DNA from: Pseudomonadota bacterium
Lineage (GTDB): Bacteria; Pseudomonadota; Alphaproteobacteria; UBA2136; JASBTF01
Length of the DNA stretch: 64,000 nt
Direction of reading: 5' to 3'
Assembly: GCA_030148545.1 (NCBI GenBank)
Contig: JASBTF010000003.1
Span: 1 to 64,000, forward strand
Shown: positions 7,124-11,764 of the stretch, piece by piece
How the letters are laid out: the number at the start of each line of letters is the position of its first letter
Numbering within the stretch: position 1 is the first letter of the stretch
Program-made: the position numbers and the translations under genes
Notes under the pieces: model-generated
What the model saw: the letters and a program-made list of their open reading frames with translations, nothing else
What the model was told of the DNA's origin: nothing
Database searches by the model: none

Positions 7124-7438
7124 TTATGCTGCAGTTTGCGGTGCTTTAACCACAAAGCTGGTGGCATATTGCTGATTAGCGCGGTCGAACGCACATAGGC
7201 GAATATGCGCAAAGGGGAAGCGCTTGGCACAGGTATCAATTTGGCTCATCACCCAGTGCGTGGTTAGTTTGGCTTGGCGCGGTAGTGGCCATAATTTCCA
7301 ATAAACTTCATCTGGTGCTGGGTTTTCAGCAAACTCAATTAGTGGCAATAGGTCATGTTCCAACATATTTTCTACCTGAGACTCAATTTGCCCAGGAGAG
7401 AGTGGTGGTAGGAATGAGAAAGTTTCAAAGCGTGACAT
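7124..7438 (-). CDS. rbcS-like: RuBisCO small-subunit homologue
   Basis: MSRFETFSFLPPLSPGQIESQVENMLEHDLLPLIEF...VYWKLWPLP...DTCAKRFPFAHIRLCAFDRANQQYATSFVVKAP follows the RbcS pattern (FSYLPPLTDEQI..., YW.lW.lP, C...FP..YIRv.aFD, SFIV.RP). Starts 22 nt after the large-subunit-like ORF. Confidence 0.92.
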   Translation of the reverse strand: MSRFETFSFLPPLSPGQIESQVENMLEHDLLPLIEFAENPAPDEVYWKLWPLPRQAKLTTHWVMSQIDTCAKRFPFAHIRLCAFDRANQQYATSFVVKAPQTAA

Positions 7439-7460
7439 AATAATTAATCCTTATTAAACC

Positions 7461-9146
7461 TTATTTGTCGCGGTCGCCATCAATAGAGCGTAGCGTGGTT
7501 TTTGTTTTTGGCTTTTTAGCTGCTTTTTCCTGCACTACGGTGCCACTAACGCCGTCTTTCTGGTCACCTAAAATAACACCAAACAGGAAGGATTCTTCAG
7601 CCCAGTATTCCAATGCTACCTTTAGCTCAGGCGCATATTTTTGTGCATGGGTAAGAATTTGTTTGCTTTCTACAGTTAGGTTGCGGCCTTCACCACGGGC
7701 TTGCATCACAGCTTCAATAGCGGTGCGGTTGGCAGTGGCGCCAGCAGCACTACCCCATGGGTGGCCCATAACACTACCACCACATTGAATAATTAGGTCT
7801 GGCCCTAAAGCATCTACCAAACGTGGGAAGTGCCATGGGTTATGCCCACCACCCACAGCGGGGAGGCTAGTTGCATGGTTAGCAAAGGACTGGGCATAGC
7901 GTAGGCCTGTTTCCATCTCTACTTCAATGTGTTGCTGCGTAAGTGCAGAGGTAACCCCACGTACAGCACGGCGGCCACTTGTGCCACCACGTAGCGGACT
8001 TGCGGTACTCACAACATCGGCACCGGCAAGGCGCAATAGTTTAGCTTGCACTTGCTCGGTTAAAATATCGCCACTCAAGGTACGGCTACCCATGGCACAG
8101 AGAATCATATCGTTTTGGCGGCACCATGTAGCTAGCGATTGCAATGCAATCCACCCAATTACACTGCTATCCACCAAAATCATGTTGAGACCGAGCTGTT
8201 TCACCAACTCAGCGCGTTGTAGCATGCCTTCTATTGTTGGGGCTGTTACGTTGGCAGCATGGCATTTAAACTCGTTTGTGTCGGCTTGGGCACTGTGCAC
8301 GGCATCGGCCAAGTATTGGAAACGTTCGCGCCATTGGTTGCTAGGAATACTGTGCAGCAACGTTGGGTCGGCCGTAATATCTACACCGCCTTTTAATGTT
8401 TCAAAAGCAGCACGGCCGTACATGCGTGGGGATAGGCCCATCATAGGGCGCATGGTTACGCTGAGTAGAGGGCGGCCAAACTTGCCTGTAAAATCGCGCA
8501 GGCCATTGCTGCCAAAAGCAGGGCCTGGGAAGGTGCGCAGAAGTAAATCTGGAATACGAATATCTACCAGCTTAGCATCGGTACTGGTGGCGGCAGAGCC
8601 GAGCACGGCGAGTAAGCCAACAAGTGAACCATCTTCTACCATGCCATGTGGGAAGGCGAGGTCTACCTCTACACGGCGGTTACCTGTTTGGCGGCTATCT
8701 ACCGCAATGGGGCGTGGTGTTTTGGCTTTATCTACAAATTGTTCGGTCCATGCTTCAATCCAAGCACCGTGAGCGGCGTTTTTCAGCAGTTGCGCTGCTT
8801 CGGCAGGGCTGCGGTCGGTGTCGGGAAGTACGTAGGTGGCAAGCACATCGGTTAGGTCGCTGTTGCTTTGTGTCGCTTGGCTTTCGGTTTCCTTAGTGCT
8901 GGTGGTTACAGCAGCTGGGCCATTGGTGGTTAGGCCTGTTAGTGCATCTAGGCTGATTTCCAGTACTTGGGCAATTTTCACCATATTACTAATGGATGGG
9001 TTTACTTGCCCAGAGAGAATACGGCTGAGAGTGGCAAGGGATACGCCTGATTTTTCAGCAAGTTCTGCTGCGGTCATGTCCTGCTGTTGCAGCGCTGTTT
9101 TAAGGGTATTGCCAAGTTGTTGGGATTCGTTAGTGGGCGTACTCAC
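7461..9146 (-). CDS. XRE-type HTH domain fused to a catalytically degenerate RuBisCO large-subunit-like protein (GTG start)
   Basis: N-term LGNTLKTALQQQDMTAAELAEKSGVSLATLSRILSGQVNPSISNMVKIAQVLEISLDALTG is a canonical XRE/Cro HTH. Residues after about 95 align with RbcL over its length: GRPLLSVTMRPMMGLSPRMYGRAAFETLKGGVDI, WRERFQYLADAVHSAQADTNEFKCHAANVTAPTIEGMLQRAELVKQLG, LPAVGGGHNPWHFP, IIQCGGSVMGHPWGSAAGATANRTAIEAVMQARGEGRNL. Confidence 0.93.
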   Translation of the reverse strand: MSTPTNESQQLGNTLKTALQQQDMTAAELAEKSGVSLATLSRILSGQVNPSISNMVKIAQVLEISLDALTGLTTNGPAAVTTSTKETESQATQSNSDLTDVLATYVLPDTDRSPAEAAQLLKNAAHGAWIEAWTEQFVDKAKTPRPIAVDSRQTGNRRVEVDLAFPHGMVEDGSLVGLLAVLGSAATSTDAKLVDIRIPDLLLRTFPGPAFGSNGLRDFTGKFGRPLLSVTMRPMMGLSPRMYGRAAFETLKGGVDITADPTLLHSIPSNQWRERFQYLADAVHSAQADTNEFKCHAANVTAPTIEGMLQRAELVKQLGLNMILVDSSVIGWIALQSLATWCRQNDMILCAMGSRTLSGDILTEQVQAKLLRLAGADVVSTASPLRGGTSGRRAVRGVTSALTQQHIEVEMETGLRYAQSFANHATSLPAVGGGHNPWHFPRLVDALGPDLIIQCGGSVMGHPWGSAAGATANRTAIEAVMQARGEGRNLTVESKQILTHAQKYAPELKVALEYWAEESFLFGVILGDQKDGVSGTVVQEKAAKKPKTKTTLRSIDGDRDK

Positions 9147-9173
9147 GGGATAGCTAACCTTATACTTATTTTT

Positions 9174-9213
9174 CAGATATGATATTCATAGCGAATATCT
9201 TCCATATCTGCAA
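9174..9213 (-). promoter_or_regulatory. Putative sigma70-type promoter overlapping a composite palindromic operator upstream of the HTH-RuBisCO gene
   Basis: Plus strand CAGATAT GATATTC atagc GAATATC ttcc ATATCTG. Minus strand TTGCAG-N17-TATGAA (9208-9213 / 9185-9190). Confidence 0.6.
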
Positions 9214-9228
9214 GTGATACGTAAGAAA

Positions 9229-9339
9229 TTAATGCGCTGGTAAAATGAATTTAATAGCATAGCTAAGGGCGGTGACACTTAAAATACCACCGCACCATAG
9301 TGCTGCAAACCACAACCATTGTTTGGTGTGCTTACTCAT
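9229..9339 (-). CDS. Small single-TM cytochrome bd-associated protein (DUF2474/CydP-like), 36 aa; not in the ORF track
   Basis: MSKHTKQWLWFAALWCGGILSVTALSYAIKFILPAH; ATG overlaps the cydB stop codon (TAATG). Confidence 0.75.
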   Translation of the reverse strand: MSKHTKQWLWFAALWCGGILSVTALSYAIKFILPAH

Positions 9340-10364
9340 TAATACATACTTTCTTCGGAGCTTTTGCCACGGAAAATCCAGTAGCAGTAAGCTGTATAAG
9401 CCAGAATAATTGGCAACATAAGTAGCGCACCAACTAACAATAGTGAGAGTGACGTACTAGCGGCAGCAGCATCCCACAGGGTGTACTCAAATGGAACAAT
9501 CCATGGCCACAGGCTAATGCCTAAGCCAATATAGCCAAGTAGGAAGAGTACCATGGCAAGTATAAAGGGGCGAATTTCTATATCGCGGTTTAAATCCTTC
9601 CACAGCCAAATACACACACCAAGGGTGAGCAATGGCACAGGCAACAATAGGAAGAAGTTTGGTAGGCTGAACCATAGCTCTGCAATGCGGGTATCAATAA
9701 ATGGCATGCTGAGGCTAACAACACCCATGAACACCACAACAAATAGCAAGATATAGCGCGCAGCTTGGCGTGCCCAGCTTTGGAGCTTACCGTCGGATTT
9801 CATAACAATCCACGTTGCGCCAAGTAGAGCATAACCAAAGATAACAGCAATACCAGTAAGCAATGCAAAGCCGTTAGCCCAGTCCAGCGGGCCGCCACCG
9901 TATTCACCATTAGCAACTTCTACACCTTGTACAAAGTTACCCAAGATAATGCCTTGCATGAGGGCCGCAAACAGGGAGCCAAAGTGGAAGGTAGCATCCC
10001 AAAATGCGCGAGATTTTGCAGTATCGGACTTGAAGCGGAATTCAAACGCTACGCCACGGCAAATAAGCCCAAGTAGCATGAGAATAACGGGTAGGTACAG
10101 TGCGGGTAGCAATATGGCATAAGCTTTGGGGAAGGCAACAAAAAGTCCGCCACCACCAAGTACAAGCCATGTTTCATTAGCATCCCAAAAGGGTGCAATG
10201 GCATTCATCATACGGGCGCGTTCTTTATGGTCTCCAGCGAAGGGGAATAGAATACCCACACCCAGGTCAAAGCCGTCGAGCCATACATACATAAATACAG
10301 CTACTGCTACTAATACGCCCCAAATTAAAGGGAGGTCTAGCCATGTTCCAAAATCAAACATCAT
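9339..10364 (-). CDS. cydB: Cytochrome bd ubiquinol oxidase subunit II
   Basis: 341 aa, WLDGFDLGVGILFPF, WDANETWLVLGGGGLFVAFPKAYA. Confidence 0.96.
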   Translation of the reverse strand: MMFDFGTWLDLPLIWGVLVAVAVFMYVWLDGFDLGVGILFPFAGDHKERARMMNAIAPFWDANETWLVLGGGGLFVAFPKAYAILLPALYLPVILMLLGLICRGVAFEFRFKSDTAKSRAFWDATFHFGSLFAALMQGIILGNFVQGVEVANGEYGGGPLDWANGFALLTGIAVIFGYALLGATWIVMKSDGKLQSWARQAARYILLFVVVFMGVVSLSMPFIDTRIAELWFSLPNFFLLLPVPLLTLGVCIWLWKDLNRDIEIRPFILAMVLFLLGYIGLGISLWPWIVPFEYTLWDAAAASTSLSLLLVGALLMLPIILAYTAYCYWIFRGKSSEESMY

Positions 10365-10366
10365 GG

Positions 10367-11764
10367 TTATGCATCTCCTTTGGTGAGTGTACTTGTCACG
10401 GCAGATTCTCGCCCTGGCTTATGTAAACGCTGAGGTTTCTTATTCACCGCTGGGCCTTTATGTACCAGCTTAATGATGTAGAACAGCCCGGCGCCAAACA
10501 GCAAGCTATACACAATAATAAAAGCCAGTAAGGAGATAGCCACTTGCTCAGGGATAACGGGAGATACACCATCGCTTGTGCGCATCATGCCGTAAACAAG
10601 GTAAGGCTGGCGGCCAACTTCGGTTACAAACCATCCGGCAAGTAAGGCCACAAAGCCGCTTGGGCTCATCAACAATACCCAACGGTGGAATAGGCGGTTT
10701 TCAAATAGTTGCTTACGGAAGTAAAGTACCGCACCAATAAGCCCTGTGAGGATCATTAATAGGCCTAAACCGACCATAATCCGGAAAGAATAGAAAGTAA
10801 TAGCAACCGGTGGGTGCTCTTCCTCTGGCCAGTTTTTAATACCTTTTACTTCACCATCCCAGTGATGGGTTAGCACGTAACTCGCCAGTTTAGGTATAGC
10901 TATTTCATAGTGGTTGGCTTGGTTTTCTTGGTCTGGTACTGCAAATAAGCGCAGGGCTGCACCTTGTTCATTTTCCCAAATACCTTCCATAGCTGCTACT
11001 TTGAGCGGTTGGTGCTCAAGTGTGTTGAGGCCGTGCATATCACCTACAACCATTTGAGCTGGTGCAGCAATAGCGGCCATAATAGTTGCCATACCCAGCA
11101 TGATTTTAGCGTGTTCTTTGTATTTTTTGCGTAGTAGGTACAATGCACCAACGCCACCAACCACAAATGCAGTGGTGAGGTAGGCGGCTAAAATCATGTG
11201 TATGAGGCGGTAAGGAAAGGATGGGTTGAAGATAATAGCAAGCCAGTCAGTTGGGTATAATAGGCCATCGGCACCTACTTCAAACCCTGCTGGTGTTTGC
11301 ATCCAGCTATTTGCAGCCAAAATCCAAAATGCTGAAATAAGTGTACCAACAGCTACAATAACGGTAGAGGCAAAGTGCATCCGCTTGCTCACACGTCCCC
11401 AGCCAAACAGCATAATACCTAAGAATGAGGCTTCAAGGAAGAACGCCGTAAGCACCTCGTAACCTAAAAGAGGGCCAATAACGTTGGCAACATGCTCGGA
11501 GAAAAAGGACCAGTTGGTACCAAATTGATAGGCCATAACCACGCCAGAAACCACACCAAGTCCAAAGGATACGGCGAAGATTTTAATCCACTGGCGGTAA
11601 ACTTGCTCATAAACTGGGTTGCCAGTTTTTAGCCAACGCCATTCTACAACAGCCAGCCAGCTGGCAAGGCCAATGCTCAACGCAGGGAAAATAATGTGGA
11701 AAGAAATGGTAAAGGCGAATTGGATGCGGGCTAAGAGCACGCCGTCTAGTTCAAATGGGAGCAT
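10367..11764 (-). CDS. cydA: Cytochrome bd ubiquinol oxidase subunit I
   Basis: 465 aa, LARIQFAFTISFHIIFPALSIGLA, short Q-loop form, GWFVTEVGRQPYLVYGMMRTSDGVSP. Confidence 0.97.
   Translation of the reverse strand: MLPFELDGVLLARIQFAFTISFHIIFPALSIGLASWLAVVEWRWLKTGNPVYEQVYRQWIKIFAVSFGLGVVSGVVMAYQFGTNWSFFSEHVANVIGPLLGYEVLTAFFLEASFLGIMLFGWGRVSKRMHFASTVIVAVGTLISAFWILAANSWMQTPAGFEVGADGLLYPTDWLAIIFNPSFPYRLIHMILAAYLTTAFVVGGVGALYLLRKKYKEHAKIMLGMATIMAAIAAPAQMVVGDMHGLNTLEHQPLKVAAMEGIWENEQGAALRLFAVPDQENQANHYEIAIPKLASYVLTHHWDGEVKGIKNWPEEEHPPVAITFYSFRIMVGLGLLMILTGLIGAVLYFRKQLFENRLFHRWVLLMSPSGFVALLAGWFVTEVGRQPYLVYGMMRTSDGVSPVIPEQVAISLLAFIIVYSLLFGAGLFYIIKLVHKGPAVNKKPQRLHKPGRESAVTSTLTKGDA

Follow-up and report, generated by a model that had tools for sequence, protein, structure and literature searches.

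A conserved 14-bp palindrome as the predicted autoregulatory operator of a gene encoding a helix-turn-helix–RuBisCO fusion protein

Upstream of a gene that joins an XRE-type helix-turn-helix (HTH) to a RuBisCO large subunit, the window (the whole stretch of 64,000 nucleotides analysed here) carries a nested palindrome. The locus raises the question of whether this gene is controlled by its own product, through which DNA element this could happen, and whether the same element is used elsewhere in the chromosome. The palindrome at positions 9174-9210 of the plus strand, CAGATAT-GATATTC-ATAGC-GAATATC-TTCC-ATATCTG, agrees letter for letter with the original prediction, in which it was taken for a single, probably autoregulatory operator. 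In its full form it is found a single time in the 1.14-Mb genome. The same genome contains, however, about 1,230 perfect 7-bp inverted repeats with loops of 3-8 nt, and about 55 nested pairs of this kind, overlapping positions included. Since such repeats are frequent, the composite palindrome is only mildly unusual as a bare palindrome and proves little on its own.

The gene in question (7461-9146, minus strand, GTG start) encodes a protein with matches to Pfam HTH_3 (5.4e-15) and RuBisCO_large (6.3e-63), comprising an XRE helix-turn-helix at about residues 10-70, a flexible linker at about 71-98 and a RuBisCO large-subunit fold at about 99-520. With 55.6 bits against a Pfam cutoff of 23 for HTH_3, the N-terminal domain qualifies as a curated Cro/C1-type HTH. 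The AlphaFold2 monomer model is of moderate quality (pLDDT 71, pTM 0.64) and consists of a helical HTH, a low-confidence linker at residues 71-98 and a RuBisCO body that, among PDB structures, matches form I large subunits best. Residues K175, K177, K201, D203, E204, H294, H327 and K334, present in all seven form I references, are absent in all 17 orthologues, and the fusion protein does not possess the catalytic residue set of a functional RuBisCO. Kept in the fusion protein are R295, G380, G381 and G403. The score of 319.5 bits against the NCBIfam large-subunit model NF003252 is below the cutoff of 438. As judged from its sequence, the gene product combines an XRE HTH with a RuBisCO large subunit that is form I-like and predicted to be catalytically dead.

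Directly downstream of the fusion gene lies a RuBisCO small-subunit gene (7124-7438, minus strand; Pfam RuBisCO_small 7.4e-25), which stands beside the fusion gene in 15 of the 17 genomes having the fusion, in keeping with a form I architecture. It was not found in family f3 (G002 and G007), where the fusion gene persists. The fusion gene itself is present in 17 of the 18 genomes analysed from the order to which the window belongs, spread over six families, the copies being 42-57% identical to that of the window across their aligned parts; the sole genome of these without a match is 54% complete. Matches outside the order begin at residue 99 or later, or span the HTH region only, which makes the fusion appear specific to the order. 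A scan of genome contigs returned no HTH-RuBisCO of the order, solely ordinary form I RuBisCOs; judging by the closest relatives, the window's organism probably belongs to the Alphaproteobacteria. That an XRE HTH on a dead RuBisCO, together with a small subunit, is encoded order-wide (7124-9146, minus strand, in the window) is more surprising than the palindrome.

Conservation upstream of orthologues, the test named in the original prediction, was examined by comparing the upstream DNA of the 17 orthologues with 150,528 palindromic patterns, each 10-22 long in total and defined by five fixed bases among half-site positions one to seven. The best patterns, TTNCATNNATGNAA and TTNCANATNTGNAA, gave 14 mismatches summed over the 17 upstream sequences; in 12 dinucleotide-shuffled sets, the respective best pattern had 38-42 mismatches. 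When the window was excluded, TTNCATNNATGNAA had 13 mismatches over 16 orthologues, versus 49.3 ± 3.0 in shuffles. The conserved element is a self-palindromic 14-bp site with two-fold symmetry. It is kept upstream of the 17 orthologues in the six families, the weakest matches being those of L011, L014 and L015, and its length is as expected for an XRE dimer. Thus, a conserved short palindromic operator at the own promoter, as belongs to XRE membership, was found here. In the window the site is present twice, 29 bp apart. Copy 1 is strong (9200-9213; TTCCATATCTGCAA on the plus strand, TTGCAGATATGGAA in gene sense) and ranks third in the whole genome when scored with a PWM built without the window, and copy 2 is weak (9171-9184; TTTCAGATATGATA on the plus strand, TATCATATCTGAAA in gene sense). 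Both fall within the 82-bp gap at 9147-9228, between the small ORF that ends the cyd operon and the GTG. Several other orthologues also have two copies, at distances of 17, 18 or 21 bp. We consider it probable that this element is the operator of an autoregulated HTH-RuBisCO gene, as predicted from its conservation.

The arrangement of a candidate promoter around the two copies is compatible with such a role. On the minus strand, a candidate -35 hexamer TTGCAG (9208-9213) lies inside operator copy 1 and a candidate -10 hexamer TATGAA (9185-9190), weak when taken alone, lies between the two copies and ends 38 nt before the GTG at 9146. This pair, TTGCAG-N17-TATGAA, had been named in the original prediction and is present in the sequence, but it is weak as a promoter: a simple consensus promoter scan does not list it, and at least two other candidates upstream of the HTH-RuBisCO gene score higher. 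What speaks for the putative promoter is comparative, namely that locus L004 has TTGCAT-N17-TATATT with the operator on the -35, in the same layout as in the window. When the best-scoring sigma70-like promoter of each orthologue is considered, its -35 or -10 coincides at least in part with the operator in 10 of 17 cases and is free of it in the other seven, a count that is biased because the operators themselves contain promoter-like hexamers. Altogether, the promoter geometry would favour autorepression. The part of the original prediction that concerned a probable autoregulatory operator at this promoter is supported by the conserved 14-bp palindrome and by these overlaps.

We propose that an XRE head dimer would read the 14-bp palindrome TTNCA-N4-TGNAA. 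The candidate -35 is contained in copy 1, and copy 2 follows closely downstream of the candidate -10; protein bound there would therefore block RNA polymerase, and the outcome would be autorepression. In this scheme we infer that the fusion protein is the binder, that it acts as repressor, and that it forms an L8S8-like oligomer.

The position of the motif at the fusion gene's own promoter in every family points to the fusion protein as its predicted binder. It could instead be that a different regulator, another XRE or an FNR-like protein, reads the motif and controls the HTH-RuBisCO gene along with further genes, the fusion protein binding elsewhere. We regard this as unlikely. It is true that the window's genome contains four other XRE genes and that some genomes outside the order also have more copies of the motif than of its control; the recognition helices of those four XREs, however, are of other kinds (FQQIQKYE type or ISEAQLYRYR) and a strong site is absent from their own promoters, while the site is found at the fusion gene's own promoter in all six families. 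Furthermore, the closest HTH found outside the order, that of the XRE-cupin L024 (G033:C38; 38% identity, helix VSVSTLSK), has the same motif upstream of itself, in the copy TTGCATATGTGAAA (TTTTTGCATATGTGAAAATAA) 111 bp before the HTH match. Upstream of seven XREs with other helices no strong motif site was found. L024, although one case, would link this helix type to the motif independently of RuBisCO. As to the excess outside the order, the motif compared with its reversed control numbers 13 versus 1 in G108, 11 versus 1 in G066, 18 versus 3 in G057 and 10 versus 1 in G107, all genomes of the same class; therefore other proteins read similar sites there.

If the fusion protein reads the motif, the sites away from its promoter become relevant. 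The genome-wide scan for operator-like sites that the original prediction had envisaged was carried out on the 1.14-Mb genome with a PWM made without the window. The count of strong matches was just moderately above that of permuted-PWM controls, and single matches are therefore not trustworthy. Among the top 40 sites, 8 pairs lie within 300 bp of each other (30 permutations: mean 0.53, maximum 2). The clusters fall largely within genes: hemE-polA (close to the GC-skew minimum), recR, an epimerase gene, a nucleotidyltransferase gene, and a TsaE-phosphotransferase gene with the neighbouring flavoprotein gene. Clusters were located at C3:120811-121418, C3:133788-136566, C1:47568-50385 and C3:193619-193674 (loci L155, L114 and L158), with site pairs 21 or 41-42 bp apart. 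In G003 (family f4; 1.16 Mb), scanned with a PWM made without f4, 6 pairs were found within 300 bp (controls 0.40, maximum 2) and 25 within 3 kb (controls 4.6, maximum 8), and the clusters again include polA, near parB. The spacings of 19 close pairs from the window's genome, G003, G004 and G008 are concentrated at 21, 31, 42 and 63 bp and follow a 10.5 bp period (Rayleigh R 0.69, p about 1e-4), in a set that includes a few pairs shared as orthologues by G003 and G008 and in which the G004 and G008 stretches were chosen for containing a site. The sister species G008 and G003 have 81% identity over their aligned DNA but 94% within the sites, of which 12 out of 13 are retained; control 14-mers from permuted motifs have 78% identity. 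Clustering, phasing and within-genus conservation are three differing tests, and together they point to functional, multivalent binding at the predicted sites.

That these additional sites are chance matches, with the promoter site alone functional in ordinary local autoregulation, seems improbable to us on the same evidence. Permuted PWMs also give many single strong matches, and clustering was not found in the 400-kb origin region around parB of G001 (family f2), scanned with a PWM made without f2; the clustering, the 10.5-bp phasing and the conservation of intragenic sites nevertheless all exceed their controls. Family f3 (G002 and G007) shows no surplus of perfect motif sites. In G007, perfect motif sites closely flank the fusion gene on both sides (C16:46502 and 48262). 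An origin-centred distribution of the sites was also considered for the window's genome. The origin 105 kb contain 6 sites versus a control mean of 2.4 and a maximum of 7, the rest of C1 contains 3 versus 12.2 (depleted) and C3 contains 13 versus 6.8 (enriched). In this set of unordered contigs, the distribution is suggestive only.

Very little speaks for the clustered sites being the parS centromeres of this lineage, bound by ParB, with a merely coincidental copy at the HTH-RuBisCO promoter. Some clusters are indeed near the origin (hemE-polA beside gidA-parA-parB in the window's genome, polA in G003), clusters fall largely within genes, and the half-site TTTCA is similar to parS. Yet the spacing of the half-sites differs from the parS consensus TGTTNCACGTGNAACA, and parS-like sites exist apart from the motif: canonical or near-canonical ones beside parB in G003, G002 and G007, and two-mismatch ones beside gidA-parA in the window's genome (C1:53050 and C1:55851). 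Because the parS-like sites beside parB are separate from the 14-bp motif, ParB is an unlikely binder. In addition, the window's gene has its site despite lying on a terminus-side contig, where the GC skew turns over. Canonical parS was not found in the window's genome; the two parS-like sites on C1 lie near the GC-skew minimum, beside gidA-parA-parB.

It is hardly credible that one composite operator of nested 7-bp repeats, as originally predicted, is at work, for although both repeats are perfect in the window, neither is conserved upstream of the 16 orthologues, and the genome is rich in perfect inverted repeats of 7 bp. The inner repeat GATATTC/GAATATC has a mismatch sum of 90 over the 16 upstream sequences, versus 91.8 ± 3.0 in shuffles, and the outer repeat CAGATAT/ATATCTG likewise 90, versus 93.1 ± 3.1. 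With the 14-mer conserved and these repeats at shuffle level, the significant unit is the 14-bp site, present twice. The outer repeat arises because two self-palindromic 14-mer copies flank the centre, its arms lying inside the two copies; the inner arms (9181-9187 and 9193-9199) are not conserved. The supposed single operator is in this way resolved into parts of two 14-bp copies.

Returning to the fusion protein as reader of the motif, we hypothesize that the RuBisCO body, together with its small subunit, would tie several HTH pairs into one multivalent particle. This particle would bind pairs of sites on one helix face and perhaps bridge distant sites in the manner of EspR. The retained pocket (R295, G380, G381 and G403) might, speculatively, sense a sugar phosphate. 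Judging by the predicted sites alone, we only tentatively suggest an EspR-like multivalent chromosome binder built on a dead RuBisCO. Equally tentative is the wider proposal that RuBisCO was exapted in one order, its shell arraying HTH dimers on phased, largely intragenic clusters of the 14-bp site and regulating its own gene via that site, perhaps with a sugar phosphate as the signal.

EspR of M. tuberculosis has an N-terminal HTH and a C-terminal dimerising domain that allows multimers, binds at its own promoter as well as inside and between genes, and bridges and loops distant sites (PMC3315491). The fusion would resemble it in combining an HTH with an oligomerising part, in a predicted binding site at its own promoter and in predicted sites within and between genes, which are clustered in the window's genome and G003 and not in the f2 region scanned. 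In contrast to EspR, the oligomerising part would here be a whole RuBisCO with small subunit, and the EspR motif TTTGC[TC][GA] is unlike the 14-bp palindrome. The 434 repressor, HipB and SinR are XRE-family autorepressors with short palindromic operators. The HTH of the fusion matches HipB and SinR, and it shares with this group the HTH_3 domain and, as predicted, a short two-fold operator over the own promoter; these repressors differ in operator sequence and have no RuBisCO body. With the XRE-cupin L024 the fusion has in common a TLS[RK] recognition helix and the same motif upstream of the own gene, whereas L024 carries a cupin-like sensor domain (recognised by eye) in place of RuBisCO. Form I RuBisCO (L8S8) is similar in fold, in the small-subunit gene and in sequence, with 32-38% identity to proteobacterial large subunits, but in the fusion all eight catalytic K/D/E/H residues are replaced and an N-terminal HTH and linker are added. 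Form IV RuBisCO-like proteins share with the fusion the RuBisCO fold and an incomplete complement of carboxylase residues. To our knowledge they have neither a small subunit nor a DNA-binding domain, in contrast to the fusion, which has a DNA-binding domain and a small-subunit gene.

RuBisCO is among the best-studied enzymes, and in the open-access literature searched we found no report of it acting as a DNA-binding protein; the literature searched on HTH-RuBisCO or XRE-RuBisCO likewise contained nothing relevant. The fusion protein probably controls its own gene and may also bind where similar sites cluster in other parts of the chromosome. An order-wide fusion with lost catalytic residues, a mostly kept small subunit and a conserved operator offers a case, open to direct testing, of an enzyme complex converted into a scaffold that regulates genes or the chromosome. 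Such testing can start from the operator, which specifies a precise DNA sequence for use in binding assays and predicts other sites.

A minor observation concerns the upstream operon. It encodes the cytochrome bd oxidase with cydA (10367-11764) and cydB (9339-10364), both on the minus strand and assigned by Pfam, and ends with a small single-helix ORF found by eye in the sequence (MSKHTKQWLWFAALWCGGILSVTALSYAIKFILPAH; 9229-9339, minus strand). This ORF of 36 aa starts at the end of cydB and limits the operator-holding intergenic gap to 82 bp; it probably encodes a CydX-like small subunit of this oxidase.
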